The position numbers were made by a program, and so were the translations under genes. This document shows positions 2,592 to 20,216 of a stretch of DNA of 64,000 bases, one piece after another. The number at the start of each line of letters is the position of its first letter. Position 1 is the stretch's first letter. Below the pieces are notes generated by a model that did not search any database, was not told the origin of the DNA, and saw only the letters and a program-made list of their open reading frames with translations. Source of the stretch: Metallumcola ferriviriculae (lineage in GTDB: Bacteria > Bacillota > JADQBR01); contig NZ_CP121694.1 in the NCBI RefSeq assembly GCF_035573695.1, forward strand, positions 3,356,001-3,420,000, read 5' to 3'.

Positions 2592-2921
2592 GGCATCAGT
2601 TTAACCGACATTCATAACCGGCTGGAGGAACTGCAAACACAGCTTTTAAAGCTGGCCAGCTCCAAGGCAGACTACGATGATGTCGCCGATGAGATTTACC
2701 ACCTGCGCGAATAGAAGCAGAAGGCTCAGGTGGAAAATGCAGGCCGCGATGAGATTCGAAAACGGATAGCTGATATGAGCGCGTTTCTGAAGGAACAGCC
2801 CACCGCTATTACTGAATATGACGAGCAACTGGTCAGGCGGCTGATTGAAAAGGTCACTGTCTACGAGGACAGGTTCACCGTGGAATTTAAGTCCGGCGTA
2901 ACGGTGGATTTGGAAGGATAG
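2592..2921 (+). pseudogene. C-terminal remnant of a large serine recombinase
   Basis: The plus-strand frame reads a coiled-coil segment (LEELQTQLLKLASSKADYDD) and then the typical C-terminal tail of zinc-ribbon serine recombinases (ITEYDEQLVRRLIEKVTVYE, FKSGVTVDLEG). There is an in-frame TAG at about 2712, and the catalytic, recombinase and zinc-ribbon domains are absent. Large serine recombinases integrate phages and conjugative elements. It resembles the tail of the recombinase remnant at 15.2-16.8 kb, which lies on the opposite strand. Confidence 0.8.
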
Positions 2922-3008: not shown

Positions 3009-3923
3009 TTATAAATCATAAAATTTGTCTGACGGTTGTAATTCAATTCTCTTACTATCTATTCCACAAGAAACCAAACTGTCAAACATTATCTGTCGCT
3101 CTTTATCTCTATGATAATAAACCTTCCATATAGCCTGTTGATGCGTGAATAAATCAATATTCTTGAAGTATGGAATGTCCACCCCGGCAAGCGAATGGCC
3201 TATAACCATTATTTCATTTACATCTTTTTTAATCAAATCAAATAATTTATACATATATCTATTTATGTCCTTATATGTTTGCGAATAGTAATCTTCCACA
3301 ACTTTACATATACTGACTCTTTTTTCATCGAATTCTCTTTCGGCATCCTGAAGTTTTTCTTTGATTTTTTCAATCCTAGCTTTGTTTCCATGTCCTAAAA
3401 TAGGTGCACCATCTCGTTGTCGCAAGGAACCATGAATATGAATAATTTTTCCTTCGCTTATCTTGTAAACTGTTTCTAAAACTGCGGTATAATTAAATGT
3501 TATGTATATTGCATCCTCAATTTCGTTTATTAACGTAGTACGTCTTTCTACATCACGTATTCGTATTGTTCTTGCCCACTGTTTTAGGCATTTTGCCAAA
3601 AATTGTATGTATTTGTATTTATCGGCTAAATACTCATACAATGTATCTTCTATACCAACATCTCCACTTTCCAAGCCCATATCTATACTGACAGCTTGCT
3701 CAATAATCACATCTTCATCGATGTTTGCAAGGTTGGTCTCTAATTCATTCCATAACAATTCCTTCTTAGTATTTTCTTCCATTGATGGATAAATACAATA
3801 ATGTTCCTCGAAAGTATATAAAAAATCAGAATACAGGTTTTTTAAATATGTTCTGAAATCCCAATATGTAGTTGCTAATCCATGTCCTTTATCAAAGCCA
3901 TTTCCGATTATGAATAATTTCAC
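3009..3923 (-). CDS. AbiH-family abortive infection protein
   Basis: The 304-aa product begins with the characteristic AbiH motif (MKLFIIGNGFDKGHGLATTY) and later has ITFNYTAVLETVY, HIHGS and VIGHSLAGVDIPYF, the conserved blocks of the AbiH family. AbiH of lactococci is a single-gene phage abortive-infection factor; its mechanism is not established. The start is GTG with GGAGG nine bases upstream. It is a stand-alone defence gene inside the island, with its own terminator. Length is typical for the family and no damage is visible. Confidence 0.85.
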   Translation of the reverse strand: MKLFIIGNGFDKGHGLATTYWDFRTYLKNLYSDFLYTFEEHYCIYPSMEENTKKELLWNELETNLANIDEDVIIEQAVSIDMGLESGDVGIEDTLYEYLADKYKYIQFLAKCLKQWARTIRIRDVERRTTLINEIEDAIYITFNYTAVLETVYKISEGKIIHIHGSLRQRDGAPILGHGNKARIEKIKEKLQDAEREFDEKRVSICKVVEDYYSQTYKDINRYMYKLFDLIKKDVNEIMVIGHSLAGVDIPYFKNIDLFTHQQAIWKVYYHRDKERQIMFDSLVSCGIDSKRIELQPSDKFYDL

Positions 3924-3941: not shown

Positions 3942-4550
3942 TCAGATATCAACATTAATGTCATTGCAAAATTTTAGCGCTTTGGAATTTGCAAACTGTA
4001 TGCATTCAGTCGTTAATTGCCTCGATGCCAAGCCGTTTAAGCTCTTCAAGGTGATCCCGCATTTTCTGAAGATCGTCTGGGGAGTGCCCCCCCAGTCCAA
4101 GACTTCGCCAACTACTCGCATTGAGTGTTGAGTTCGGTAGGACCTCGTTGGGTTCCCCGGAAACTTCTTGTCCGTCAGATTGGGGTCATCCTCGATGATG
4201 CCGGTGGGCTCCACACGATAGATCCGACCAGGTTCGTCGCCCACCGCAAGTTCAGCTCCCCATATAGCCGCATCTAGTGTCGCGGTGAGATAGACATAAT
4301 TGGCCTTCTTTCGCTCGCTATAATTAGAGCCATGGCCGGGTTCCAACAAGTCCCCTTGCTTCAACTCGGCTTTAGTGCCGTGGTAGAAAGGCCCGGGGTC
4401 CAATAATCTAGATGGTGTCTGTTCGTTCTTAATATTCAATTCTAATCCCTTCCCTTCATGAGGAACTTGCTGTTCCAACATTCCTTCCATGGGGTTTGAT
4501 AATAATATTTTAGCGGAAGGGAACAAAAATAAACAGTCTAAATCTTCCAT
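3942..4550 (-). CDS. arr: Rifampin ADP-ribosyltransferase (Arr-type) with frameshifted C-terminus
   Basis: The central part matches Arr enzymes, which inactivate rifamycins by ADP-ribosylation using NAD: FYHGTKAELKQGDLLEPG, KKANYVYLTATLDAAIWGAE, GRIYRVEPTGIIEDDPN, DKKFPGNPTRSYR. After VLDWGG the frame departs from the family. Adding one G to the G7 run at 4087-4093 would give HSPDDLQKMRDHLEELK and a stop at 4006, the normal Arr ending. As written, the protein instead has an unrelated tail of about 45 residues. The N-terminus before the FYHGT motif is also about 50 residues longer than usual and lacks a clear binding site, so the true start may be internal. Activity is uncertain. Confidence 0.8.
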   Translation of the reverse strand: MEDLDCLFLFPSAKILLSNPMEGMLEQQVPHEGKGLELNIKNEQTPSRLLDPGPFYHGTKAELKQGDLLEPGHGSNYSERKKANYVYLTATLDAAIWGAELAVGDEPGRIYRVEPTGIIEDDPNLTDKKFPGNPTRSYRTQHSMRVVGEVLDWGGTPQTIFRKCGITLKSLNGLASRQLTTECIQFANSKALKFCNDINVDI

Positions 4551-5563: not shown

Positions 5564-6235
5564 CTAATTGTCGGGTAGTTGGATGCCACACCAACCGCCT
5601 ACATCGCATTGACCAGATTCATTATCACCTACAGCTACCACCGTGCCGTCCAATTTAAGGCCGATAGTATGAGCGCACCCCGCCGCTACTGCTACAATAT
5701 CGTACCAGTCACTTACATTGCATTGACCATACTCATTCCAGCCAACAGCCATCACAGTACCATCCGATTTAAGGCCGATTGTATGACTACTACCCACCGC
5801 TATCGCCACAATATCACGCCAGCGACTCACGTCGCATTGCCCTGCCTTATTTTCGCTTACATTGCATTGGTTTTCATTATTTCGCCCAACAGCAACCACC
5901 GTGCCATCAGATTTAGCGCCAATGGTACGACGCCAACCCGCCGCAACCGCAACAATATCGTGCCAGTCGTTTACATCGCATTGGCCATGCTTATTCCAAC
6001 CCATAGCCACTACAGTACCGTCAGATTTAAGTCCGATTGTATGAGCATTACCCGTGTTCGTCGCCATATGAACCTTCCCAGCCGCGACTGCCACAATATC
6101 GCACCACCCGCTTACATCACATTGGCCATAATTATTATCACCCACAACCGTCACCGTTCCGTCAGTTTTAAGACCAACGGTATGACGACGGCCTGCCGCT
6201 AATGTACCATAATGTACTCTTGTATATTTGCCCAT
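5564..6235 (-). CDS. RCC1-repeat protein
   Basis: A 223-aa protein made of about five RCC1-type repeats with the core DGTVVAVG, then GQCDVS, then DIVAVAAG, HTIGLKS. Such repeats fold as beta-propeller blades; bacterial members have no single function. No signal peptide is present. GGGGTGA lies seven bases before the ATG. Repeats 1 and 3 carry extra partial copies (KVHMATNTGNAHTIGL and NENQCNVSENKAGQCDVS). These look like unequal recombination between repeats, so the number of blades may be unstable. Five blades are fewer than the seven of classical RCC1 propellers. Confidence 0.75.
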   Translation of the reverse strand: MGKYTRVHYGTLAAGRRHTVGLKTDGTVTVVGDNNYGQCDVSGWCDIVAVAAGKVHMATNTGNAHTIGLKSDGTVVAMGWNKHGQCDVNDWHDIVAVAAGWRRTIGAKSDGTVVAVGRNNENQCNVSENKAGQCDVSRWRDIVAIAVGSSHTIGLKSDGTVMAVGWNEYGQCNVSDWYDIVAVAAGCAHTIGLKLDGTVVAVGDNESGQCDVGGWCGIQLPDN

Positions 6236-6308
6236 AGTATTTCACCCCAAATCCTGATTTGTTGCTGGACACGGACGTTAGTCAATCTTCCGGTTATGCT
6301 CTCATTAA

Positions 6309-6888
6309 TTATACATCCAACCTATACGCGTCCCCGTGAGCGGGGTATATTACTTTCGCACCTTTCTGCTTTAAATCATACCAGCTTTGCTTGCTTTTAC
6401 AGTCGTCTTCCATTACTAAATCCGGGGAATATAAGTCGCCGATAAAAGCAACACCATCTTGAAATACCACTGAAATACTATCATCAGAATGGCCGGTCGT
6501 TTTTATCACCTGTGCGGGAACGTGATGTTCTTTAAAAAATAGCTCTGATTCATCAATGCTCAGGACAAGATTTGAATTCATGTCTAAGTTGATAGGATCG
6601 GTACTTCCTGATCATTTTTTCCATAACCTGAATATAAGGTATTTGATGCTTAAACAAAATTAAACGAGTTCCGGATTTTTTAATATTTTCTACCAGGCCT
6701 GCATGATCAGGGTGAAAGTGTGTTACGATTAGATATTTTATTTTCTGCGGGTTAATATTAAGAGTTTTTAATTTTCCCACATATTCATGGATGCAGCCTG
6801 GCCAACCTGCATCTATTGCAAGGTAAAAATCATCTATTTTTACCAAAAAACATTTTGTATGTTTAATAGGAATATTATAAGTCCGCAT
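6309..6888 (-). pseudogene. Metallo-beta-lactamase-fold hydrolase, frameshifted
   Basis: Two overlapping minus-strand frames together make one MBL-fold protein. The first (6888 to 6553) has the metal-binding motif VTHFHPDHAGL. The second (ending 6309) has TTGHSDDSISV, the metal-bridging region AFIGDLY and a terminal PAHGD. The frames join if about one base is inserted near 6600-6606, giving STDPINLDMNSNLVLS. As written, the first frame stops after CPEH and the second lacks the HxHxDH motif, so no active enzyme is expected. The substrate is unknown. Confidence 0.8.
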
Positions 6889-7100: not shown

Positions 7101-7351
7101 CAAATCCACTTTCTTGGACATATTCCCACAGAGCAACAAAATCACGATTTTAAAGCTCAGGCTTTCAATCTTGAAATCCCACAAATGGCTTATTTGCTGG
7201 GCTTTTCGCACACTCACTTCTCCACCCTTGACATCAACACCACACACTCAACGTATAATGTACCCATGAATTCAGACAAAATTTTCGACAAACTAAGTGA
7301 ACCTGATATAATAAACGGCAGGAAAACTGTCAGAAAGAAGGTTCATACAAA

Positions 7352-7687
7352 ATGGGAAGACGAAAATTTACAGCCGAATTCAAAACTAAAATCGTACTGG
7401 AGCTACTCAAAGAAGAAAAACAGATAGGCGAACTTGCAGCCGAACATGAGTTAAGCCCCAATCAACTGCGCAACTGGAAAAAAGAGTTTTTAGAGAATGC
7501 ACCACAGGTGTTCTCACAAAGCAAACAAGAAAAAGAGCTTCGTGCCCAAGAAAAAGCACTGGACGAAGAAAGAACCGAATTAATGGCAAAAGTCGGTCAA
7601 CTCACTATTGAGAATGACTGGCTCAAAAAAAAATCTAAAGAAGTTCTTGGGGTCGACTGGGAGACTAAGTCTGGTTTCAAAAAATAA
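7352..7687 (+). CDS. IS3-family transposase OrfA
   Basis: The 111-aa protein starts MGRRKFTAEFKTKIVLELL and has the helix-turn-helix of IS3 OrfA (ELAAEHELSPNQLRNWKKEF), followed by a leucine-zipper-like coiled coil. It binds the terminal repeats. Near its end an A9 run (7625-7633) is a slippery site; a -1 shift there enters orfB and would make the OrfAB transposase. It appears intact. Confidence 0.9.
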   Translation: MGRRKFTAEFKTKIVLELLKEEKQIGELAAEHELSPNQLRNWKKEFLENAPQVFSQSKQEKELRAQEKALDEERTELMAKVGQLTIENDWLKKKSKEVLGVDWETKSGFKK

Positions 7688-8495
7688 CAAACTGCCGGTT
7701 AATCGGCAATGCCAGTTACTTGAGATCAATAGAACCAGTTTTTATTACACACCTAAAGAACCTGACAGAGAGCGCGAAAATATGATTAAAAACAGGCTTG
7801 ATTACTGGCATACCAAGATGCCATATCTAGGGGTTAGGAAGCTTCGCAAAAAGCTACAGAATGAAGACCACATTAAGGTTGGCCGTAAGTTAATTAAACG
7901 CTATATGGACGAAATGGGAATATATGCGGTCTATCCTAAACCCAACCTGTCAAAGCGTAATAAGCAGCACAAAATCTATCCTTACCTGTTAAGAAACCTA
8001 GATATTAATCGGGCAAACCAGGTTTGGGCCATTGACATTACCTACATTAAGATGGGCAGAAGTCATATGTATCTAACAGCCGTCATCGACTGGTATAGTC
8101 GTTACATAGTAGGCTGGGAACTATCAGATACTTTGGACACCGCACCGGTGTTAGCAGCAGTTAAAGAAGCTATCAACAGATACGGCACGCCGGAAATTAT
8201 CAACAGCGATCAGGGGTCTCAGTTCACAAGCGCTGATTACACAGAATATTTAAAGAGCGTGAACATCAGACAAAGCATGGACGGCAAGGCCCGTTGGATT
8301 GATAATGTTATCATAGAGCGATGGTTTAGAAGTCTAAAAACCGAACAAATCTACACACATGAATATCTAACACCTAGAGACCTAAGGATCGGTATTAGAG
8401 AATATATCCAGGAATATAATACAGAACGGCCGCATCAAACCCATGACTACCTAACCCCTCAAGAAGTCTATCAGGGGATAAGCAAAGCAGCCTAA
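7608..8495 (+). CDS. IS3-family transposase OrfB (integrase core)
   Basis: The frame encodes the DDE catalytic domain: VWAIDITYIKMG (first D), IINSDQGSQFTS (second D) and IIERWFRSLKTEQIY (E). An N-terminal HTH_21-like segment (YWHTKMPYLGVRKLRKKL) precedes it. The product probably exists as an OrfAB fusion made by -1 frameshifting on the A9 run at 7625-7633; the ATG at 7608 is unlikely to be used alone. All three catalytic residues are present, so the element may be functional. Confidence 0.9.
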   Translation: MRMTGSKKNLKKFLGSTGRLSLVSKNNKLPVNRQCQLLEINRTSFYYTPKEPDRERENMIKNRLDYWHTKMPYLGVRKLRKKLQNEDHIKVGRKLIKRYMDEMGIYAVYPKPNLSKRNKQHKIYPYLLRNLDINRANQVWAIDITYIKMGRSHMYLTAVIDWYSRYIVGWELSDTLDTAPVLAAVKEAINRYGTPEIINSDQGSQFTSADYTEYLKSVNIRQSMDGKARWIDNVIIERWFRSLKTEQIYTHEYLTPRDLRIGIREYIQEYNTERPHQTHDYLTPQEVYQGISKAA

Positions 8496-8684
8496 TAATA
8501 GCAAGACATATATCAAAGTCAAGTAGTCTGATGGATAGTGCCGCCATGTGGACAACCCTCCGCTACGCTCCAGGTTGACGCACAAGGCTTGGACAACAAA
8601 AACCGTGTTGTCCACACTCTCCACAGCCTCGGCGACTGGTCTAAAGTTTACGATGACGATAAAATCATTTAAATGGGAATATCT
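8496..8684. other. Non-coding 3' segment of the IS3 element with a hairpin
   Basis: About 190 bp separate the orfB stop from the right terminal repeat, long for an IS3 element. It contains a perfect 8-bp hairpin (TGGACAAC at 8590 with GTTGTCCA at 8607) and more GTGGACAA-like copies at about 8548, but no reading frame of note. The purpose is unknown. Confidence 0.5.
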
Positions 8685-8788
8685 GGTTCACTTAGAAAAT
8701 TAAAATTTCTGTCTTGACAAGGGGGACACTTTAACGTGCCTTGGAGTATCTGTATCACTTGATAGAAAACACATGGCACGGACAGCTT

Positions 8789-11700
8789 TTATAGTTGTTC
8801 ATTAATCCTAGCAATAAATTTTATACAAAAATCTTTCCACGTAAAATTTTCACTTTCCTCATTCATTTTAATATACGTTATTGGGAATTTAATATTGCCG
8901 TATCCTGTGATCCAGTTTGAGTGCATCTCTAATATTCTATTTAAGCCTTCAACTTTCTCTTCCTGTGATAATTTACTGTAAAAATTAAAAGAGAAATGAT
9001 TCAAATCATTATGTAAAGCATACAATTTTGAGTCCTCACTATATATGTTATTTTCAAAATAATGATCAATAATATCATTCAGTAAAGCTTTAGTCTGGTC
9101 TTGCGTTAAATAAGGAAATATAATTTCGAAAAGTCTATCAGCACCATCATATTCCCAGTCAGGAGCTTTTCTTTCATGAACTAAAAGATCAATTATCTCT
9201 TGAACATAATCAAGTATATTTTCCGTAGATGTCAGTTCTACCTTTTTAATTAATCCAATTGCGAAATCCCATCTAAATGTGTTCTTTTCATTAACGCACT
9301 TCCATTTTAGTAATTCAAGAGCTTCACTACACGTTTTTTCTCCTACTTCATCGATAAATTTTGCTGCGGTAGTATTTACATCAGACTTACTATACCATCT
9401 CTCTGGAATAATAAGTGCAGTATAAGATATATCACTTCTTTCTTGTGAATACTCTAGTTCTGCTATTTCTTTCATTTTCTCCCCAATATCTACATAACCT
9501 AGTCTACTAGCAGCTAATTCGATTGTCCTCCTTACATCAGAAATATACGCACATCTTATTTCATTCTCGGAATCATAAGGCTTAGGGCTCTTAGAAACGT
9601 AAAATACATCAGTTGCAATTGACCATAAAGACAGGAGTTCCTCTTCTGAGAAGTTATCATGCTCAAGGCTAGCTATTATTCCATCAAAAACCGTTTGTAC
9701 CCAACCCCTATCCCAATACTGATTCGAAAGAGCAAATTCCCAAAGGGATTTTGCACCAAAATGTCCAGCAGAAGCTGCTACCGCTGCATAAATATATACC
9801 GCTGCTCTATTATCACCGGTTTTCGATGCATAATCAGAAATATTTAAAAGTTTTAAGCCTATCGTTTCCCAGTATGGTTTATTTGCAACGTCAAGGCCGT
9901 TATACCATTTTAAAGGTGTGTACAAAGAGTATTCTTTTCGACCAACATATCCAACCAATTTTGTTTCAAGCATACTCTTTATAACATTTGCTTCTTCGGT
10001 CCACCCCATGTCTAATGCCTTCGGTATAAATATTGAAGAAATCCAATGCAATTCATATAATTCTTGATTCCATATTAAACCTTGTTCGCCCATCCAGTGA
10101 TTAAAAACGTCCTTCAAAGCCTCTTCTTGATTATTAACTTTTAGATAATTCCACCAGATATCAATGTTTTTTAGTGTTTCAATGACTCTAACATTTCGTA
10201 TGATCAAATTTACTAACTCTTTTTTTAATGAACTGGTTAATAGATGGTCAATAGAAATAATACCCTTTAGTAGAAACTCCTGAGCAGCGGGTCCACCTAT
10301 TTCGATGTTGCCTACTGGCTCCTTTCTATCAAATATTTGATCTACAAATGCTCTAAAATCATCCTGACCAATAATTCCTTCCTTATTATCAAAAATTGTA
10401 GATACCAAAAATCCAAAGAATCTGCTTGATTCTAATAAGTTAAATGCAGAATAGTATCCTCTATCTTTGTAGGTTAATTTACCTTCACGGAACGATATAA
10501 TCCCCTCATTAACAGTTTTATGCTCTGCCTGTCCATAATAACTTAAAATAAAAGTTATTCTTGCGAAGCTCTCAAATATTTTTTCATTATAACGTTCACT
10601 TTCTTCTATTACTAAGAATTTGAATCTTTGCTCTAATACTTTTCTAATACATTTCTCCGCCATTTTTTCTTTTTTATGTAAAATGGCCCACGAAGAAAGC
10701 TTTACCTGAACATGGCACGACATTTTTTCAATTGGATGCTTTTCCAATATGTTTTCAATGGCCTCAATCTTGTCATTCTCAATCAATTCAATGAAAAATT
10801 CATCAAAGTCTGCTTTAAAATAAACCTCTATATTTTTAAGAGTGTACTCAATTTGGTCATCCGATAAGTATTTTCTACCTTCGTTAAGCCATCCGCTTGT
10901 AAATATAGCTCTGTATTTCCCCGAATTCTCTGTTGCTTCACTTTTGTCAAGTCCAGCAAAATTAATACCAGTTACTCTTGATATCTCACCCCACATCTTC
11001 AATATTTGTTCAATATCCTTATTTCGTTGTGCCTGAATTGGCACACCATCTTCTGGTTTTTCAGTATTATTGTTATTCAATAGCAGAACTAGCTCATCTG
11101 GCGTAAGGTTACCAAACCAGCGAAACAACATACTTTTAGCTCTTTCAACTTCTTTAAATTGAATTAGTGTCTTAGCCTCCAAAAGCACATTGGTAACGAT
11201 ACTTGTATTAAATAACTTCCTATTTAATACTTTCTTTTCATTTCGTAAAGCGACTGGTAACTCCGAATCGTCCTCATGTATCTTGTCTTCCCACTGAAGT
11301 GAGGCTTGATATTGAAATAAAGTATCTACAGCACAACTTAACGAAAGTACAGTTTTAAAGTCCCTCAATTCTCTCATCGATAACAGCGTAATTTTAAGCT
11401 GTTCAAATAATTCAGTCATAGGCCTTTTATATTTTATTGCCTCAACAATATAATTTTCGTCGTAGAATTTAATGAAATCACTTTCTCTTTTTGCGTACTG
11501 CAAAAGTTGAAACCCAATCTCATGTTTCAACTTAATATCGTCACCCCGGGTTAGAAAATAGTCTGCCAGACGGCTAGAAATAGTTACAAAATTATCAGGA
11601 TCTCTTTTAATATAATTATCGAGATATATCCTTACATCGTTATGAAATACTCTATATTCATTATTTTCTCTTATAACAATAGGGTAAAGACGATTTAAAA

Positions 11701-13486
11701 CTGCTTTCCAAGCTAACTCAGGAATATTTTCATCTTTAAATATATCTGTTAATAATATTGGAGTTATCTTCTTATTTATAAGAGCAAGTGTTCCTGCTAA
11801 TAGGGTATCAATATAAAAAATTTCTCCTGGTAACTGTGTTTTAGTTTCTTTCCAAATGTACTCATAATAAGATTGTATGCCACTGGATATTCCTGATTCA
11901 TTAAGTTTAGTTTCTAACTCATCTAAATTTGAGCAATGTGCTACTTCATAAACTGCAAATACCGCCGATAGCGTATTGCCAGATACAGCCTTATTAATGA
12001 TTTTGACTGCAAAATCTATTCCTTCTGGTGGGAAGTTTTGGTTAACGTTTAGGAAGAGTTGTTTTATATCATTTTCATTAATTGGAGGCACTTCTATATG
12101 TAAAACTGTGTCTTTATTTGAAAGCCAATCAGGGTAGGCATCATATTGCATAATAGGTTGTCCAGATATCAAAAAGGTTACGTTTTCAGGAACTCCATTT
12201 GGCGGAACCAGCGTCGTTAAAAATGTATTCGTATTGCCTGAACGGGCAGCATGGTCGATGCCATCAATAGCAATTACAGTGGTATTACCAGTTTCATCTG
12301 CAAGAATTTGAGAAAGCCTTAAGACTTCATTTCTTAAGTCGTCAATACTTTCTAAAAGCTCGTTCGTAACAGGTACATTGTACTTTGAGAGTTTACCGGT
12401 GAATAAATTTCTAAGTTCAACTAAAAAATTGCCCCATAAAGCTCTTGGATCACTTATTCCTTTATCAGCTGATAAATATAAATCATCTGCAGATAATGGT
12501 TTGAAGGCATGAAACCTTAAGGTGATTACAGAATCACTTTTATTGGCCAAGTGACTTACTATATTTGTTTTTCCTGAACCAGGATCACCATACAAAAAAA
12601 TAACCGGGGCTTCTCTATCAACTAACTTGCGCTCTAATTCATTCGTAAAATCAATTCTTGAAGAAAAAAATGGTTCACAAGTCTTTAAGTCATGTTCACC
12701 TTGTATTTTATCACCATATAGCGACAACGCTTCAAATAAATCTTCTCGTGTTATCTCTTGTTTGTCGCGAACAGTTGTCGTCCACTTACGCAAGGCGGCA
12801 CAAAGTTTTTGATCTAACTGTTTTGCAACCCTTATATGTACCTTAAAATATTTAGATAATTTGTCTGAAATCTTATCTATAATTTCATCAAGCTCATCTT
12901 GGTTAGTCTTGATATCGAGCGTCCTTAAAAAATTTAATTTTTTGTCATCAGTATTAAGCGAGTTTATTTCTTCTTTCCAAATTTTCCACGCCGTCTCCCA
13001 TCTAGCTGGAACTTCTATTTCTGACAAAGTGGTTATATCTGTCAACTGAGTATTAATTAATTCCAAGAACCCTTTTAATGGTGGTCTCTCATACTTTACG
13101 TTTTCATTATCAACTCCGCTACTCTTATATACTCCTATTTTTCTATTAGTATATAAAATCGCTTTGCAGCTAACATACCCTTTTTCTTGTGCATTTTGCC
13201 AATCACTACACATTGAATTTAAGAGAGACTTTTTGCTTTCAGTTTTATAAACCATATCTCCAAATGTGATCGAATCTGATTCTCGTGTATGTTTAATTTG
13301 TATGCAACTTGCATCATCGTTGTTGTAGACCACAACAACATCATCTAATCCTTGCAGATCATTTGCTTGGAGAATTACATGTTTAATATTATTATCAGGA
13401 TTTAACATGTCAAGTGCATGTAATAATCCAATAGACCATTCGTACCAATACGGATCTCCGATACCTGCAGTTGAGTTAGTAGCCAT
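8789..13486 (-). CDS. STAND NTPase with N-terminal Cap4-like nuclease and long helical C-terminus (Avs-like)
   Basis: A 1565-aa protein. Residues 1-120 resemble the Cap4/DUF4297 PD-(D/E)xK nuclease: GLDDVVVVY (D48/D49) and CIQIKHT (Q63-x-K65). Around 280-560 lies a P-loop NTPase of STAND type with Walker A YGDPGSGKTN (about 300-308) and Walker B TVIAIDGIDH (about 403-412). The remaining 1000 residues are helical, repeat-like and without motifs I recognise, as expected for a sensor region. Nuclease-STAND-repeat architecture is that of Avs-type antiviral proteins, which sense conserved phage proteins and then degrade DNA. The start at 13486 has AGGAGGGA eight bases upstream; the frame is open to 13609 without such a site. 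It is the last gene of a four-gene operon, 43 bp after the glycosylase gene. The nuclease and Avs labels are inferred from motifs. Confidence 0.78.
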   Translation of the reverse strand: MATNSTAGIGDPYWYEWSIGLLHALDMLNPDNNIKHVILQANDLQGLDDVVVVYNNDDASCIQIKHTRESDSITFGDMVYKTESKKSLLNSMCSDWQNAQEKGYVSCKAILYTNRKIGVYKSSGVDNENVKYERPPLKGFLELINTQLTDITTLSEIEVPARWETAWKIWKEEINSLNTDDKKLNFLRTLDIKTNQDELDEIIDKISDKLSKYFKVHIRVAKQLDQKLCAALRKWTTTVRDKQEITREDLFEALSLYGDKIQGEHDLKTCEPFFSSRIDFTNELERKLVDREAPVIFLYGDPGSGKTNIVSHLANKSDSVITLRFHAFKPLSADDLYLSADKGISDPRALWGNFLVELRNLFTGKLSKYNVPVTNELLESIDDLRNEVLRLSQILADETGNTTVIAIDGIDHAARSGNTNTFLTTLVPPNGVPENVTFLISGQPIMQYDAYPDWLSNKDTVLHIEVPPINENDIKQLFLNVNQNFPPEGIDFAVKIINKAVSGNTLSAVFAVYEVAHCSNLDELETKLNESGISSGIQSYYEYIWKETKTQLPGEIFYIDTLLAGTLALINKKITPILLTDIFKDENIPELAWKAVLNRLYPIVIRENNEYRVFHNDVRIYLDNYIKRDPDNFVTISSRLADYFLTRGDDIKLKHEIGFQLLQYAKRESDFIKFYDENYIVEAIKYKRPMTELFEQLKITLLSMRELRDFKTVLSLSCAVDTLFQYQASLQWEDKIHEDDSELPVALRNEKKVLNRKLFNTSIVTNVLLEAKTLIQFKEVERAKSMLFRWFGNLTPDELVLLLNNNNTEKPEDGVPIQAQRNKDIEQILKMWGEISRVTGINFAGLDKSEATENSGKYRAIFTSGWLNEGRKYLSDDQIEYTLKNIEVYFKADFDEFFIELIENDKIEAIENILEKHPIEKMSCHVQVKLSSWAILHKKEKMAEKCIRKVLEQRFKFLVIEESERYNEKIFESFARITFILSYYGQAEHKTVNEGIISFREGKLTYKDRGYYSAFNLLESSRFFGFLVSTIFDNKEGIIGQDDFRAFVDQIFDRKEPVGNIEIGGPAAQEFLLKGIISIDHLLTSSLKKELVNLIIRNVRVIETLKNIDIWWNYLKVNNQEEALKDVFNHWMGEQGLIWNQELYELHWISSIFIPKALDMGWTEEANVIKSMLETKLVGYVGRKEYSLYTPLKWYNGLDVANKPYWETIGLKLLNISDYASKTGDNRAAVYIYAAVAASAGHFGAKSLWEFALSNQYWDRGWVQTVFDGIIASLEHDNFSEEELLSLWSIATDVFYVSKSPKPYDSENEIRCAYISDVRRTIELAASRLGYVDIGEKMKEIAELEYSQERSDISYTALIIPERWYSKSDVNTTAAKFIDEVGEKTCSEALELLKWKCVNEKNTFRWDFAIGLIKKVELTSTENILDYVQEIIDLLVHERKAPDWEYDGADRLFEIIFPYLTQDQTKALLNDIIDHYFENNIYSEDSKLYALHNDLNHFSFNFYSKLSQEEKVEGLNRILEMHSNWITGYGNIKFPITYIKMNEESENFTWKDFCIKFIARINEQL

Positions 13487-13529
13487 ATATGATCCCTCCT
13501 CCTTAATTATAGGATTCATCTTACTTGCT

Positions 13530-14257
13530 CTATAAAATCTTTTTACAGTCATTACAAATAATACATTCTTCACAATTTGAATGATTAGGCCTACACCACG
13601 TTCTTCCAATTTCCCAACAGGAGAAATCGATAATCCCTGGAAACTCCGGATTCAGCTCCCTTGCCCTATAAATAACTGAATCAAGATCAGCATCGTAACT
13701 CACCAGGCCTGTCCGCCTCATTACCCTTAAAATATGTACATCGGGAGATATGTCTATTGAATAGTAATCAGAAAAAGGGACCTTAAACTGCCGGGCCAGA
13801 ATATTTGCAGCCATAGTAGCAATTTTCTTCCCGCTACCTTTAAACTGTAGAAAATCGTAGGCGACCTTTGCACTACTTGAATTGTTGCTCCAAATACGGG
13901 ATGCATCCCCATTATACTTTGCTTTTATATCATGAACAGCCTCGTAAAAGACAGAGGCCATTGTGTCATTGAATCTATGCAGCGTATTGTTATTAAATAT
14001 TTCTTTATAACTATCCAAAGAAACGGATGCTAAATCATCTATATCAAAGCTACCAATTATGCTTTTTATTCTATATGGGATTGACCATGCACGTTCCGCT
14101 TTCATCTGTCTGTCCATTAAGCAGGCTAAAACATATGCATGTGGAATACATTAAGAAAATCATTTTGTACTTTATCATCCACCAAATGGACTGAATGCCT
14201 TTCCGGGTCTTTAAAACGCTCTTTTCCAATGGTCACCAGTAGATGTTCTCCCACCAT
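13530..14257 (-). pseudogene. Iron-sulfur HhH-GPD DNA glycosylase, frameshifted near its N-terminus
   Basis: The main frame (to 14117 and open to about 14146) reads PHAYVLACLMDRQMKAERAW, then the helix-hairpin-helix FKGSGKKIATMAANIL with a lysine where Nth has its catalytic lysine. SIDISPDVHILRVMRRTGL follows with the catalytic aspartate, then a C-x6-C-x2-C-x5-C cluster motif near the end. This is an endonuclease III-like base-excision enzyme. The upstream frame starts at ATG 14257 with GGAGG six bases before it and reads IGKERFKDPERHSVHLVDD. That frame hits TAG after about 44 codons. The two join if one base is added near 14145. The gene is thus damaged, or a sequencing error or programmed shift is present. 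It lies between the 101-aa gene and the STAND nuclease gene, same strand, so it probably belongs to that defence operon. Confidence 0.75.
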
Positions 14258-14284
14258 ATCCCTCCTCTCAATAAAACTACACCA

Positions 14285-14590
14285 TCAAATTTCATAGCCG
14301 AATTCTCTAAGTCTCTTTATACAAATATCCCTCTCAGCATTTGTAAACAGCTCTGCAAACTCATCCTTTAAAACAAGAGCTTCCACGGATAAGTCCAATC
14401 TTTTATTTTCCCACAAAACCTCAAAACCGTATGTTCCACCTTCTTTTGAAATCAGTTGTTTTGCAGCTAGAAGTCCACCCTTTTGTGCTACCAGTTGCAT
14501 AAATCTTGCCGCATTATACCCGAGTTCCTTCTTGGCGGTAAAATATATGTTTTTCATTTCTTCATTGAATTTGTTCTCCAAAAGTGTCAT
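14285..14590 (-). CDS. Conserved hypothetical protein of the defence operon
   Basis: A 101-aa soluble protein with ARFMQLVAQKGGLLAAKQLI, YGFEVLWENKRLDLSVEALV and ERDICIKRLREFGYEI. The pattern (KGG...AAK.LI, GF..LWE..RLDLSVE, ...R.RL...GY) is one I have seen in scattered bacterial proteins without a known function. The ATG has GGGAGGG seven bases upstream. It lies 36 bp after the regulator gene and 27 bp before the glycosylase start, supporting co-transcription. It could be an adaptor or DNA-associated partner; that is a guess. Confidence 0.65.
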   Translation of the reverse strand: MTLLENKFNEEMKNIYFTAKKELGYNAARFMQLVAQKGGLLAAKQLISKEGGTYGFEVLWENKRLDLSVEALVLKDEFAELFTNAERDICIKRLREFGYEI

Positions 14591-14626
14591 GACTAGCCCT
14601 CCCCTTTTTTGAAATCTAACTTAACT

Positions 14627-15031
14627 CTAAACCATTTTCAATTTAATCATGTTCCCCGGCAAGGCTTCAAACATCTCCGGATAATGACCGCATCTTGCCC
14701 GGATCTGGTTATATTGTGCTTTTCCTCCATTTTTCTGTCTGTATAGCCCTCTATTAAAAATCTCATCTGCCAGGGCAGCAGCATGCATTGTACTATCCAC
14801 CGCTTCTAAAAGCACAATTTTCATCGCTTCTTGCAATGTATATTTTGGTGTCTCTATATTAGCTTCTTGTTCAATCGCGCCCATATTAGCATCGTATTTC
14901 AGGATAATGTAAACCGGTTGGTTGTCCTTAAGTAGAACCACCTTCCCGTTCTTTTCAACTGTCTGAAATACAGAATCAGCATCCACTTTGATTCGGTCAA
15001 AAGCTACAAGGCTATCTAGCTTAATTTCCAT
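14627..15031 (-). CDS. Phd/YefM-like N-terminus fused to a HARE-type winged helix; likely operon regulator
   Basis: A 134-aa protein. Residues 1-50 resemble Phd/YefM antitoxin DNA-binding domains (VVLLKDNQPVYIILKYD). Residues 65-134 (YTLQEAMKIVLLEAVDSTMH, ADEIFNRGLYRQKNGGKA, YNQIRARCGHYPEMFEAL) look like a HARE-HTH domain, seen in restriction and transcription factors. No toxin is encoded beside it. It is the first gene of the four-gene operon and sits behind a promoter with inverted and direct repeats, so an autoregulatory role is likely. The ATG has GAGGTG upstream. Confidence 0.7.
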   Translation of the reverse strand: MEIKLDSLVAFDRIKVDADSVFQTVEKNGKVVLLKDNQPVYIILKYDANMGAIEQEANIETPKYTLQEAMKIVLLEAVDSTMHAAALADEIFNRGLYRQKNGGKAQYNQIRARCGHYPEMFEALPGNMIKLKMV

Positions 15032-15050
15032 AATTTATCACCTCGAATAA

Positions 15051-15119
15051 AGAGTATCAATTGTAAAACAATTTGTCAATACAATTGTATGAACAAAATA
15101 GTTATTTGTATGAACAAAA
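15051..15119 (-). promoter_or_regulatory. Promoter and repeat-rich operator of the defence operon
   Basis: On the minus strand TTGACA (15074-15079) and TACTCT (15051-15056) are separated by 17 bp. Between them lies the inverted repeat AATTGTTTTACAATT. Upstream are two direct copies of TTTTGTTCATACAA (plus-strand positions 15085-15098 and 15106-15119, 21 bp apart). These are probable binding sites for the Phd-like regulator encoded immediately downstream. Confidence 0.6.
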
Positions 15120-15158
15120 GCACCGATGAGTCTTACTTCAAGGCTCTACCGGTGCTTT
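15117..15158 (-). terminator. Terminator of the recombinase remnant
   Basis: Minus-strand hairpin with stem AAAGCACCG / CGGTGCTTTT just downstream of the recombinase stop at 15175. It insulates the defence operon promoter from transcription reading in from the right. Confidence 0.65.
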
Positions 15159-16312
15159 AATGTTCTTATATTGCTCACCCTAATATCTCTTTCAGCTCAA
15201 TTCCACTTCTAAAAATAAAGGTTGCTTCAACCAATGAATGAATCACTACCTTTTCAACCAGTCGTCTAAATAAAGCTGCATCAAATTTTGTGATCGGAGT
15301 TTCGCCCGAGTTTAGGAATTCCTCCATCTCATCAATTCTTTTCTGTCTCATGACTTCTGAAAGCTCTGCTTCCTCTATCGCAGCCTTACGCTCTCGGATT
15401 TTATCCATTTCTTCTGATACCCTTATATATTCAGCTTCATAAGCTGCAGTCCCGGTTCCAGCTCGTGCATTCAACCTTACTAGTCACCTCCTGCCCCAAT
15501 TCTTCTAGCCGGTCATTTAACTCCCAATCGTAAACTCCTGCTCCACCTGCTCTATCCCAGTTTTAATATTTTCAAGCAATTGCTGCAGGAATGCCCGCTC
15601 CCCACCAATAGCTCTGTTCATGGCTCGAATAAAAGCCTTTTCAAGGTCTTTTTCCTTTACATCCTTTGCCGAGCAAGCATCCAATCCGTTCAAAGCCTTA
15701 TTGGTGCATTTCCAAATGTAGCTTTTAGTTTTACCAGTTCCCCAGCAAGAACGCTGGAGTTTTGCACCGCAGTTGTAGCAAAATAGCATCCCGGAAAAAG
15801 GATACTTGCAGCCATATTGATTTTTACCAGTGCTAGAATAGCCTCGAATGAAAGACCTTCTTCTAAACTCAGCCTGGACAGCCGCAAAATCATCGCTTGA
15901 TGATCGGTTCATGGCTTTCAGATACATAATAGTTTTGAACAATCCCGTTTATTTCTTACACGCTTTTTGGTAAGGAAATCAACAGTATAGTCTTTTGAAG
16001 CCTTGCATCTCCCTTATATTTTTCATTTTTAAGAATCTTTATGATGTTACTTTCATGCCATTTGGTATCCCCTGCACCATTTCCCAAACCATCAAGGGTC
16101 AGCCCTTTAGCGATTTACCTGGTGCTTTTCCCCTCTAAAAACTCCCTGTATATTCGCTTCACAATTTCAGCCTGCTCCGGAACAATAACAAGATCTCCAT
16201 TTTCATTCTTTGTATATCCCAAAAATCTCTTGTGATTCACAAACACTTTTCCACTCTGAAATCTATGCACTATGCCCACCTAGTATTATGACTGAGGGCG
16301 AAAGACTCCTCT

Positions 16313-16715
16313 TGAATAATATTTTAGGATAGAGCCACTAGTGTACTCAAACAGAGCCACCTTGGTCATGGTGGGAGCCATCGTCTCAACCAATGGTTTT
16401 GCACTTTGGAGCCGCATTTATTCCACGGTCCTCTTGACAACGAGCCTCTGCCGGCATGGCGTGAGGCATCAACGGCATCACCCCTTTGGGGTCGGGCTAC
16501 GGGGGCGGGTGATGCCTGGCCTTCAGCCTAGCATGCCGGCCCTCATTATCAAGAGGCTTTCGCGGCATAAACGCTCAAGTTCATCGGGTGCGTATGCATC
16601 GGGCACGGAACAATAATGTTTGAGTGGCTCTCATAGAAGAACAGACTGGCTCTGTTAGATGCACATGGTGGCTCTAAAACATCGCACTGCTGGCTCTATC
16701 GGATGGCAATAAACA
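16313..16715. mobile_element. 403-bp IS21-like non-autonomous element (MITE-like)
   Basis: The ends are TG...CA and, compared end to end, share TGNNTA, then GATAGAGCCA and AGTG in the same register over 31 bp. Further AGAGCCA copies follow inside each end (left 16331, 16353, 16375; right, inverted, 16625, 16647, 16669, 16691), spaced about 22 bp, a pattern typical of IS21-family ends. CCTCT is duplicated on both sides (16308-16312, 16716-16720). Removing the element with one CCTCT copy joins the recombinase frame as SSLTQEESFA. It contains no transposase gene, so it must move with help from elsewhere. Confidence 0.85.
16430..16556. repeat. Long imperfect hairpin inside the MITE-like element
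   Basis: CCTCTTGACAACGAG pairs with CTCATTATCAAGAGG, CCGGCATG with CATGCCGG, and GGCATCACCC with GGGTGATGCC, giving a 127-bp GC-rich foldback. It is far richer in GC than its surroundings. A plus-strand frame across it is not a credible gene. Confidence 0.75.
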
Positions 16716-16913
16716 CCTCTTGGGTGAGTGATGAAATGATTACTAAAAGGACTTCCCCTTTTGCATCCAGAGTATTAATATTCTCCTTCTCAAAGATAAC
16801 ACCAATACTAAACGAGTCCCCAGGATTAATTTAGATAATCTTGTAAACGTTTCTAGGCTGGTAGTTCATACACTTCTGCAAAGTGGGTCTCCTTCCCTTA
16901 CTTACTTCCTAAA

Positions 16914-16977
16914 CCTTTGCGCGGAACTCTATTTATTTGCGCATATTTGTATATTTCCGCGTAAAGGTACAACCCCC
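16914..16977. repeat. Inverted repeat, 13-bp arms
   Basis: CCTTTGCGCGGAA and TTCCGCGTAAAGG pair with one wobble around a 38-base AT-rich loop. There is no T tract. The stretch 16813-17068 holds no gene; it may include the decayed 5' part of the recombinase. Confidence 0.6.
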
Positions 16978-16980
16978 TAA

Positions 16981-17024
16981 ATAGCAATATTCCCCAAACC
17001 ATCAGTCTGAGGGAACATAGCTAT
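16981..17024 (-). terminator. Possible terminator of rlmD
   Basis: Hairpin of ATAGC-AT-TTCCC type arms around a short loop, 45 bp past the rlmD stop. A good T run is missing, so termination by it is uncertain. Confidence 0.4.
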
Positions 17025-17068
17025 ACTTATCAAATTAGTCCCAAGCGCTTAAACCCTTTACCGCCAAC

Positions 17069-18358
17069 CTATTTCTTCTCTATCAACACGACGCACTCCA
17101 CGTGCCCCGTCTGCGGAAACATATCCACCGGCTGGACCTTTTTTATCTGATATGCATCGGATAGTGTCTTCAAGTCACGGGCCAGGGTTGCTGGGTTACA
17201 GGATATGTAGATAATTTTTTCTGGTCCCAGTTCTAGTAGCTGGTGCAGCAGTCTTTGGTCACAGCCCTGACGGGGCGGGTCTAGGATAACCACGTTGGCG
17301 TCATCGGCCTGCCAAAGATCCTTTAATCTTTCTTCCGCTTTACCGTGGCGGAAGCTGGCATTTTTAACACCGTTTAAGCGGGCATTTAGTTTGGCGTCCT
17401 GCACCGCTGCCTTGTTCAGTTCGATACCCACCAGTCTACGGCACTTTTCTGACATAAAGATGCCGACGGTTCCGGTACCACAGTATAAATCCCAGAGGGT
17501 CTCTTGCCCCGTAAGATTGGCCCAGTTTCGGGCAGTTTCATAAAGCACCTCGGCCTGGACAGTGTTTACCTGAAAAAAGGCCCGGGGCGAGAGAACAAAA
17601 TCATATTTGCCAATCTGTTCTTTTAACCTCGGCTTACCCACTACGGACATTTTAGCGTTGCTATCATTAATGACCGCGACAGTTACTAATGGATCATGAT
17701 GCTTAAGTAAAGCTTCTGCTTCGGTAAAGGGTTCCCCATTAGTAAACACCACTGCCATTATTTCGCCGTTAGCAAAACTCTTTCTGAGCCATACCTGTTT
17801 CATGGGAATACCTTTATCCAACAATAGATTAAAATTCTTCACCAGCCCGGAAAATTCTTCCGGCAAAAGGTGGCATGTCTCCACGGGCACCAATTGATGG
17901 CTGCCCGGGGCGTATAGGCCCAGTCTCTTATTGCCGTCTACCAAGCCGACCTGAAACTGTACCTTATTCCGATACTGCCATGGTTGTTGCATACCCAGCA
18001 CCGGCAAGACCTCAGTCTCTATTTTACCAATGCGGCTTAGTGCATTTTCAACCACCGATTGCTTCCAGGCTAACTGCTGAGGATACTGAAAATGCTGCAA
18101 GGTGCAGCCGCCGCAATATTCAAAATGGTTACAGCGTGGAGCGATACGCTGCTCTGAAGCGGTTAGTACTTCCAACAGCTTTGCCCGACTGTATTTCTTT
18201 TTCACCTCTGTTATTTGCGCAATAACTTCTTCGCCTGGCAGTGCATCACCGACAAAAACCGCCAGTCCATGATACCGACCGACGCCGTTACCTTCTGAAG
18301 TAAGGTCCTCAATGTTTAATTGTACTGTTTGACCCTGTCTAACAGGAAAATCAGCCAT
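17069..18358 (-). CDS. rlmD: 23S rRNA (uracil-C5)-methyltransferase, RlmD/TrmA family
   Basis: A 429-aa enzyme that methylates a uracil at C5 using SAM. It has an N-terminal TRAM domain, an iron-sulfur cluster motif (CNHFEYCGGC, C76/C82/C85), the SAM-binding LYCGTGTVGIF, VILDPPRQG and the catalytic-cysteine motif YISCNPATLARDL near the end. The start at 18358 has a G-rich site eight bases upstream and overlaps the last 8 bases of the mscS gene, implying translational coupling. Bacillota often carry several paralogues of this family, so the exact target (U747 or U1939 equivalent) is not certain. Confidence 0.9.
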   Translation of the reverse strand: MADFPVRQGQTVQLNIEDLTSEGNGVGRYHGLAVFVGDALPGEEVIAQITEVKKKYSRAKLLEVLTASEQRIAPRCNHFEYCGGCTLQHFQYPQQLAWKQSVVENALSRIGKIETEVLPVLGMQQPWQYRNKVQFQVGLVDGNKRLGLYAPGSHQLVPVETCHLLPEEFSGLVKNFNLLLDKGIPMKQVWLRKSFANGEIMAVVFTNGEPFTEAEALLKHHDPLVTVAVINDSNAKMSVVGKPRLKEQIGKYDFVLSPRAFFQVNTVQAEVLYETARNWANLTGQETLWDLYCGTGTVGIFMSEKCRRLVGIELNKAAVQDAKLNARLNGVKNASFRHGKAEERLKDLWQADDANVVILDPPRQGCDQRLLHQLLELGPEKIIYISCNPATLARDLKTLSDAYQIKKVQPVDMFPQTGHVECVVLIEKK

Positions 18359-19151
18359 TATTATCCCCCCAAAGTACCGGGTAATCTGGGTAAATCCCTT
18401 GGTAATTTTGTAGTTCTTTTTTTGCGTTGGTTGTGACGTCCGCTCTGAACTGTTGGCCTCTCCGCACATCAGCAGTGTATGCCTTGACAGAGAAATGCGT
18501 CAGCCACCTTTCCTCTTCCACAAGAATTACCACTCTTTCCCCAGGGTAAAAATATTTGGAGGTTACTGTTGCTTCCCACAACACCTTCCTCGCCAACTCC
18601 AAGTCTACCTTATGGTGGAAGTAAAAGTCAATTACTACCATCGCGGGCACTTTGCCGGCGTTTTCACTACGTACCCCTTCCCGAATCATGGTACTATTGG
18701 GTACGGTAATGAAGCTGTCTTCCAAGGTTTTTAACCGAGTGCTGCGTAAATTAATACCCACTACATCGCCGTAGTAATGCCCTACTTTGATACGGTCGCC
18801 TACATAAATTGGTCTTTCAAACAGCAGAATAATTCCTGCAATAATATTCTCCAGGAAATTCTTGGCCCCAAAACCGATAGCAACCGCAGTACCGCCAGCC
18901 ATTGCCAGTACTGCTTCTCGGGACGGACTAAAGATCACAACTACTATAATATAAAGAGTTACCGCATAAATAAAAAATTTGGCCAGCACTGCGGTTTTTT
19001 CCCAAAAATGACCGCGCCTGCCCCAATGTTCTGCCGCGTAATCACGTAAAAGGCCCACAAACTTTGCCAAGATGCTAGCAACAACAAGGGCCACCGCGCT
19101 ATAAGCAAAATTACTAACTGTAAGTATATCCAATAAGAACTTGCCGTCCAC
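18351..19151 (-). CDS. MscS-family mechanosensitive ion channel
   Basis: A 266-aa protein with three N-terminal membrane helices. The third is the pore-lining glycine/alanine-rich helix (AMAGGTAVAIGFGAKNFLEN), followed by the MscS beta domain (ERPIYVGDRIKVGHYYGDVV, LEDSFITVPNST) and a cytosolic C-terminus. It would release ions or osmolytes on membrane tension. The start is GTG after AGAGGTGA. It overlaps rlmD downstream and follows the ATPase gene by 12 bp, so the three form one transcript. Confidence 0.88.
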   Translation of the reverse strand: MDGKFLLDILTVSNFAYSAVALVVASILAKFVGLLRDYAAEHWGRRGHFWEKTAVLAKFFIYAVTLYIIVVVIFSPSREAVLAMAGGTAVAIGFGAKNFLENIIAGIILLFERPIYVGDRIKVGHYYGDVVGINLRSTRLKTLEDSFITVPNSTMIREGVRSENAGKVPAMVVIDFYFHHKVDLELARKVLWEATVTSKYFYPGERVVILVEEERWLTHFSVKAYTADVRRGQQFRADVTTNAKKELQNYQGIYPDYPVLWGDNNG

Positions 19152-19163
19152 TGATAATCACCT

Positions 19164-20216
19164 CTAAATAGGTAGATATAAAAAACGCTGCTGTTCCAAA
19201 AAGTTAAGCATTTGGGGTAACAGCGCGGCATTTAATTGGTAAATTCGATCCTGATTTAGACATAACCCCAGACGGTTAAGCTTAGCCAATACCTGCTCGC
19301 TAATAATCTCGCTCTCATTGATAACCAGCGCCATCTGCGATGCTGTGAGACAGTCGTTTTGTAGCAATCCGGCCAAGGCATATATTTCTCGTTCATTGAG
19401 TTTCGTTAAACCTTCTACCTGAAAATCAGGCAGCTCTAAGGTTATTTCATTTTGTCCGGATAAAAATGCGCCCTCCAATAACCAGTAGCCGGCGGCGGTT
19501 ATCAAACCACGTGTTTCCTTGATAAGTTGGGGGAAATATTCATCGGCAAATTGTATGTCATAAGCGTTATCCTCCCCAAAAGAAATGAGCATGTCTCGCA
19601 TTTCTTTTGACTCAACCGGTTTTAAGTATACTATTGAGGTAAAAAACTTTCCTAATTTCATAATTTGGTCTAAATATAACCACGAGGTCCTTTCCCAAGC
19701 GGTAACCCAAAATATCCTGTCCCAGGTCTTACTCATCAGTCTTAAAAAGGAGTTGAGAGCAGTAAAGCCATCAACATTACGCAAGAAAAGATTCTGACAG
19801 TCATCCACCACAACTATCCGTCGCCCGACTTCCAACCTGTCAACCTTTAATTCAGGATAAAGTTGGGCGAACATTTGATTTAAATCTTGTTCGCTGGTAA
19901 TTTTAGGCCAACAGCGAACAGATAGTACATCTCTGTCAGCTATCAGCCGCTCTAGCGCCAAGCTTTTACCCTGTCCTTTGAAGGCAACAAGGGCGAGGCT
20001 GCTTTGTCTTGCTGACTGCCAGTTATTGAAAGCGACATCATATGCCTTGATAACATCCTTAATATGCATATCCACCCAGATGCTTTTAAGCTCTGATATA
20101 TCCATGCCTCGAATCACTTGCTGCGGAAGGCTTTTTCTGATATCTTCCCTTTCCTCCAATTTTTCCTGGGGTTGGGGCTGCCCCATTATTTTCTGTAATA
20201 AATTAAGAAAGTTCAT
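19164..20216 (-). CDS. AAA/ORC-like ATPase of unknown role
   Basis: A 350-aa protein (start at 20216, MNFLNLLQKIMGQ, with AGGCAGGTG upstream). Walker A is ALVAFKGQGKSLAL and Walker B is RIVVVDDCQNLF, with a sensor-like FWVTAWERTSW. The C-terminal 90 residues (LNEREIYALAGLLQNDCLTA, ALVINESEIISEQVLAKLNR) read as a winged helix. No family name is recognised; it recalls ORC1/TniB-type ATPases. It is transcribed with the MscS channel and divergent from two unknown genes at 20.3-22.1 kb. It may regulate or remodel a membrane partner. Confidence 0.6.
   Translation of the reverse strand: MNFLNLLQKIMGQPQPQEKLEEREDIRKSLPQQVIRGMDISELKSIWVDMHIKDVIKAYDVAFNNWQSARQSSLALVAFKGQGKSLALERLIADRDVLSVRCWPKITSEQDLNQMFAQLYPELKVDRLEVGRRIVVVDDCQNLFLRNVDGFTALNSFLRLMSKTWDRIFWVTAWERTSWLYLDQIMKLGKFFTSIVYLKPVESKEMRDMLISFGEDNAYDIQFADEYFPQLIKETRGLITAAGYWLLEGAFLSGQNEITLELPDFQVEGLTKLNEREIYALAGLLQNDCLTASQMALVINESEIISEQVLAKLNRLGLCLNQDRIYQLNAALLPQMLNFLEQQRFLYLPI

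Follow-up and report, generated by a model that had tools for sequence, protein, structure and literature searches.

The window analysed here, the whole stretch of 64,000 nucleotides, contains a run of four minus-strand genes (8789-15031) that have good ribosome-binding sites and are separated, in the order of transcription, by gaps of 36, 27 and 43 nt. These genes encode a 134-aa Phd/HARE protein (14627-15031), a 101-aa protein with no assigned fold (14285-14590), an Endonuclease III (EndoIII)-like HhH-GPD Fe-S glycosylase (13530-14257) and a 1565-aa protein that combines a Cap4-type nuclease, a STAND NTPase and a helical sensor (8789-13486). A previous, sequence-only reading of this DNA took the four genes to be members of one operon; the gene order, spacing and binding sites were described correctly, but the third gene is broken near position 14130. 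Its frame opens with an ATG at 14257 and, after 43 codons, reaches a TAG at about 14127; the conserved part of the protein (...HAYVLACLMDRQ) resumes in another frame, and the open ORF (13530-14117, 195 aa) starts from an internal ATG at 14117 that lacks a ribosome-binding site. In a distant homologue (L127), the corresponding N-terminal stretch is in frame. The identification of the glycosylase itself holds: the catalytic K and D and the four cysteines of the Fe-S cluster expected of a complete EndoIII-type ORF are all present in the broken frame, and the TIGR03252 model is matched at 2.9e-15 (56 bits, below the model cut-off of 136). Searches of phages, plasmids and viral contigs retrieved no close relatives of this protein, and 398 genomes contained just two weak ones. 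The best reading is that the glycosylase is a broken passenger that the effector does not need.

The proposal of one common leader for the four genes was borne out by inspection of the sequence, which reveals both direct repeats and a terminator-like hairpin. The hairpin (AGCACCGgt...atCGGTGCTTTT; 15117-15158, minus strand) is located 3' of a recombinase remnant; it was not picked up by the automatic terminator scan, and a G+C-rich hairpin with a T-run occurs at the equivalent position in related leaders. The promoter and repeat array follow (15051-15112, minus strand), with the repeats CATACAAAT (15112-15104), CATACAATT (15091-15083) and TTGACAAAT (15079-15071), the last of which overlaps the -35 box, and the -10 box TACTCT (15056-15051). 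The 9-mer repeat (TATACAAAT type) occurs 20 times in 11 Phd/HARE leaders compared to 1.5 in shuffled sequences, an enrichment that is an upper bound on the significance because the leaders are related sequences. The spacing of the repeats is 12 bp in several leaders, and two leaders (L133 and L137) lack the exact motif.

Folds and conserved residues both support the Avs-like composition suggested for the 1565-aa protein, in which a Cap4-like nuclease is followed by a STAND NTPase and a long sensor. Among Pfam domains, the protein matches an AAA/NACHT-type NTPase, with a Cap4 nuclease match below threshold. It matches no curated Avs model in PADLOC, scores 30.6 bits against the NCBIfam Avs1b model (cut-off 1500) and has no sequence match to the Avs3 structure in the PDB. 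The AlphaFold2 model of the N-terminal nuclease (pLDDT 86), however, retrieves Cap4 (7yia, 3.1e-8) and Avs3 (8dgc, 5.1e-7) in Foldseek searches, followed by Hachiman HamA and Lamassu LmuA. For the model of residues 286-1485 (pLDDT 81), which comprises the NTPase and the helical sensor, the best match is again Avs3 (8dgc, 3.6e-9), with eukaryotic STAND ATPases next; the whole-model TM-scores against Avs3 are low, 0.2. The D48/D49-Q63-K65 motif and the Walker motifs noticed earlier are real, and the former residues, together with E16, are invariant in the alignment of 32 to 34 homologues. Thus, a single chain carries an N-terminal effector with both the fold and the conserved catalytic residues of a Cap4-type PD-(D/E)xK nuclease, a STAND NTPase and a C-terminal helical sensor, which is the Avs architecture. 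On these predicted structures, the protein is best read as a solitary Avs-like effector, and by analogy it would possess nuclease activity, sense a phage protein and oligomerise.

The family includes two length classes, of about 1550 and about 1980 residues. Because relatives of the Leptospira and Paenibacillus type are about 2000 aa long, we considered whether the gene had been truncated by the IS3-family insertion sequence next to it (7274-8714, plus strand; rve and HTH_Tnp_1 domains, 36-nt terminal inverted repeats). This was ruled out by the phylogenetic tree, in which the protein belongs to a supported clade (0.996) of six members that share the short length (1529-1565 aa), so that the 1565 residues represent the full length typical of the clade.

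Immediately upstream of the leader, on the same strand, lie the remains of a large serine recombinase (15175-16300), recognized by translated, frame-broken remnants with a Zn-ribbon recombinase domain (2.9e-13), which are also matched by the recombinase profile, and with weak N-terminal traces extending to about 16800. The next gene is rlmD/rumA (17069-18469, minus strand), which codes for a 23S rRNA uracil methyltransferase, ends in ...VDMFPQTGHVECVVLIEKK and provides the insertion target with its 3' end. A codon-level pattern for this 3' end has exactly two matches in the 64 kb, both on one strand, with 0 expected in shuffled sequences: an attL-side copy (HVECVVLI; 17081-17104, minus strand) and an attR-side remnant (YVECVVLMSRVEK followed by a stop codon; 7232-7255, minus strand). 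The two copies bracket the recombinase, the four genes and the insertion sequence, which separates the STAND gene from the right-hand copy. The element thus has a serine recombinase beside the rlmD 3'-end junction and a second 3'-end copy at its far end. A search for exact 13-mers shared as direct repeats by the rlmD end and the island found none because silent changes separate the two 3' ends, to which the codon-level pattern was tolerant. Homologues of rlmD are present in both family relatives; the RlmD proteins are 50-54% identical, and the flanks are too distant for a comparison of the empty-site join.

The sequence-only reading had placed the genes in an island with AbiH and recombinase remnants; the mobile, defence-rich setting is confirmed, and the recombinase remnant is the immediate upstream neighbour rather than background. 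We consider it likely that a decayed serine-recombinase element sits in the rlmD 3' end and that the locus represents its right-hand, cargo end, and we hold the same confidence in the entire explanation that includes the solitary Avs-like effector. Comparison with related sequences suggests that this element is probably a prophage; the label rests on the relatives because no phage body remains, and the reading of the ORFs beside the element identified no phage structural genes. An alternative in which the cargo would be host DNA downstream of the attachment site was rejected, because the cargo is followed, on its own strand, by the rlmD 3' end, and because the identity between two related loci (L114 and L115) ends at the rlmD 3' end.

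Several other genes and gene fragments were noted near this element. An AbiH-like protein, assigned by the sequence-only reading and by our own inspection with no profile behind the assignment, is encoded at 3009-3923 (minus strand) and adjoins the C-terminal fragment of a serine recombinase (2730-2921, plus strand). It is followed by a rifampin ADP-ribosyltransferase (Arr)-like protein (3942-4550, minus strand), the C-terminal part of which is apparently disrupted; a relative occurs in L124 near a homologue of the 101-aa gene. Further decay of the island is apparent at 5564-6888 (minus strand), where an RCC1-repeat-like ORF is accompanied by two pieces of one metallo-beta-lactamase-fold gene that lie in different frames. 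Just beyond the low end of the window, L011 encodes an Rhs/YD-repeat protein of 1941 aa (13879-19704), which is accompanied by a partial duplicate and by many transposases.

The locus could be dead, part of a decayed island in which the STAND gene is no longer expressed or selected. The recombinase and the glycosylase are both broken, and the IS3 element is inserted 75 bp past the STAND stop codon, but the STAND gene has an uninterrupted frame of 1565 codons that retains every catalytic and Walker residue, the length of the protein is typical of its clade, and a ribosome-binding site and the leader are present, so we consider a dead locus unlikely.

The preferred reading of the locus as the cargo end of an element draws on a common plan of relatives that are mostly phage-borne: tandem serine recombinases, a terminator, a repeat-bearing promoter, Phd/HARE, variable cargo and the rlmD 3' end. 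With the profile search, Phd/HARE was found 30-222 bp downstream of a serine recombinase in 14 loci, and this recombinase most often closes a tandem series of two or three; the window and L112, the latter identified by reading, are two further loci, with recombinase remnants. The cargo behind Phd/HARE includes PsyrTA in L112 (PsyrT, 4e-274; PsyrA, 6e-98), HEC-05 in L141 (1.8e-232), GmrSD/HEC-06-like proteins in L130 and L114, and Schlafen/AlbA proteins in L133. Elsewhere behind recombinases, the Phd/HARE position is taken by an RHH-like or DUF1413 gene and the defence cargo is different, such as MzaB (L241). After the cargo, a conserved 141-bp stretch in L114, L115, L130, L138 and L140 encodes the end of RlmD (VDMFP...HVExVVLM), and an RlmD ending on the cargo strand is also present in L014, L141, L167, L178 (twice) and L224, which makes about ten loci in all. 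The loci compared are often contig fragments, and some viral contigs are redundant pairs (L131/L132, L137/L148, L141/L142, L130/L168 and L140/L184). A search of the literature outside subscription papers found rumA-targeted serine integrases and no description of a cargo slot between recombinase and rlmD.

STAND homologues occur in the same setting. A Clostridium polynesiense prophage (L047) contains tail genes, holin, endolysin, two serine recombinases and a STAND gene, the product of which is 63% identical to that of the window; the contig ends inside this gene. In L014, a recombinase, a small HTH gene and the STAND gene are followed by the rlmD 3' end 110 bp past the STAND gene, and in G024, the end of a recombinase is about 300 bp upstream of the STAND gene. 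No STAND homologue was detected in GenBank phages. The 101-aa gene is found with other cargo, both behind recombinases and in phage tail regions (L152 and L153); in an annotated phage genome, endolysin, holin and two recombinases precede the region with the 101-aa gene. In six loci (L139 and L143-L147), Phd/HARE lies between the phage tail-chaperone and tape-measure genes, so this family is not tied to recombinases alone. Together with L153, these loci define a second cargo place, between the same two phage genes, that is occupied by Phd/HARE or the 101-aa gene. In L178, two rlmD 3' ends in series (15911 and 19982) flank a gene for a 1037-aa protein, which gives the impression of two cassettes stacked at a single site. 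Recurrent unnamed proteins that start with MLSIEEYI..KKEDKLNEFD (and MLTVEQYISQMKKKEKLDEF) are encoded near serine recombinases or STAND genes (L178, 13172-14008; L199; L131; L021, 3976-5634; L248, 7223-8860); the one tested has no Pfam or PADLOC match.

Comparison of closely similar loci locates the breakpoints of cargo exchange. In L136 and L140, 8983 bp are shared at 94% identity up to the final bases of the Phd/HARE gene, where the two sequences part; L115 and L138 (93% identity) also part at the end of this gene. L114 and L115 share 98% identity over the stretch that opens with the Phd/HARE start codon and closes with the rlmD 3' end, and the upstream DNA is unrelated. Between L112 and the window, homology is restricted to the recombinase end, the leader and Phd/HARE, after which PsyrTA is present in the former and STAND in the latter.

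Phd/HARE is the fixed first gene after the recombinase and, judging by synteny and a weak match to the HARE-HTH domain (PF05066, E = 0.09), is a probable autoregulator. Its relatives match PF05066 at 3e-4 to 9e-8, one of them above the Pfam cut-off, and another matches Phd_YefM (1.1e-4). Because the 9-mer repeat overlaps the -35 box and is enriched in the leaders, the protein is probably an autorepressor that binds the repeats. It might, instead of acting as a transcription regulator alone, restrain the effector by contact, in the manner of a type II antitoxin, given that the gene heads the operon, that relatives have a Phd_YefM-like N-terminus and that PsyrTA, one of the cargoes, was itself earlier described as toxin-antitoxin-like. 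This alternative appears improbable, even more so than a dead locus: a single Phd/HARE family precedes effectors that have no structural relationship to one another and come with partners of their own (PsyrA, GmrS/D), STAND is present at other loci without Phd/HARE, and RHH-like, DUF1413 and HTH regulators take the equivalent position elsewhere. No small toxin gene of the kind paired with Phd-like genes recurs after Phd/HARE; the downstream genes are diverse defence effectors.

The claim of an undescribed, dedicated four-gene defence system, and of a glycosylase that feeds the nuclease, is not supported by the collection of homologues that the sequence-only reading had itself proposed, and the occurrence of STAND genes without the other three, which that reading had named as a refutation, was observed. 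A scan of 84,980 genomes for the STAND protein yielded 59 loci. Neither Phd/HARE nor the 101-aa gene nor the glycosylase is adjacent to the STAND gene in any of 48 homologous loci, 40 of which extend 1.8 kb or more upstream. No constant partner was detected across these loci, with only AbiEii-like pieces recurring, in three of them. The genomes sampled for Phd/HARE and for the 101-aa gene do not overlap, except for the window's own genome. Despite the co-directional genes, short gaps, single promoter and retained EndoIII-type K, D and Fe-S motifs, it is thus very improbable that the glycosylase excises modified phage bases and activates the STAND nuclease through abasic sites or a signal, because Phd/HARE and the 101-aa gene accompany other cargo in other genomes and the glycosylase, which has hardly any counterpart outside this genome, is frame-broken and absent beside all 48 STAND homologues.

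The best reading is, instead, that the locus is what a prophage-like element has left behind, a cassette with changeable content and not a single purpose-built defence machine. In serine-recombinase elements, the space from the last recombinase gene to the attachment site would serve as a cargo slot, and that of the Phd/HARE lineage would consist of a terminator, a promoter with the repeat array overlapping the -35 box, the Phd/HARE gene and an exchangeable defence module, which in the window would comprise the 101-aa accessory gene, the broken glycosylase gene and the solitary Avs-like effector. The Phd/HARE protein would bind the repeats and repress its own operon. Upon infection by a second phage, by analogy with Avs3, the STAND sensor would bind a conserved phage protein, the protein would oligomerise with ATP, and the Cap4-type nuclease would cut DNA and stop the infection; the glycosylase would be dispensable. 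An attractive but unsupported glycosylase-nuclease story thereby gives way to a testable one, with a clade of Avs-like nucleases that lacks a PADLOC Avs model and a recurrent place, after serine recombinases and before the rlmD 3' end, that holds PsyrTA, HEC-05, GmrSD-like, Mza and unnamed genes behind a fixed regulator. More tentatively, as a serious possibility rather than the expected outcome, phages and prophages that use serine recombinases in Clostridia and related Bacillota may carry a standardised anti-phage docking site, composed of recombinase, terminator, regulated promoter, small autoregulator (Phd/HARE, RHH-like, DUF1413 or HTH type), swappable effector and rlmD-type attachment site, with stackable cassettes and with effectors exchanged by recombination at the regulator and the attachment site. 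This slot could be a general source of unknown defence systems that might be mined, and it raises the question of whether one type of regulator controls unrelated defence effectors.

Among known systems, Avs3 (AVAST type III; PDB 8dgc, phage-terminase-bound) has the same order of domains, that is, a Cap4-type PD-(D/E)xK nuclease, a STAND NTPase and a long helical sensor, and its fold ranks first among the matches to the NTPase-sensor part and near the top for the nuclease. Nevertheless, the window protein has no sequence match to Avs3 in the PDB or to the PADLOC Avs models, and Avs3, as well as most relatives of the window clade, is about 450 residues longer than the members of that clade. Cap4, DUF4297, LmuA and HamA share the nuclease fold and the E...DD...QxK site, but in the window protein, the nuclease is fused to a STAND switch rather than combined with SAVED, HerA or SMC partners. 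The glycosylase has the catalytic K and D and the Fe-S spacing C-x6-C-x2-C-x5-C in common with Endonuclease III and TIGR03252 glycosylases, and differs from them in the score below the TIGR03252 cut-off and the out-of-frame N-terminal part. Exchangeable defence genes occupy a fixed place in the hotspots of P2 and P4 prophages. Tn7-like transposons also carry such genes at a fixed place (PMC8649781). In contrast to both, here a fixed first regulator with its own repeat array precedes the exchangeable part, and the breakpoints are at the regulator. The streptococcal ICEs that insert in rumA (PMC4701971) are similar in having a serine integrase, the 3' part of rumA/rlmD as the target and short junction repeats, but they encode a single integrase and have the attachment site within the integrase gene, whereas the elements described here are phage-like, with tandem recombinases and the cargo located between the recombinase and the attachment site.
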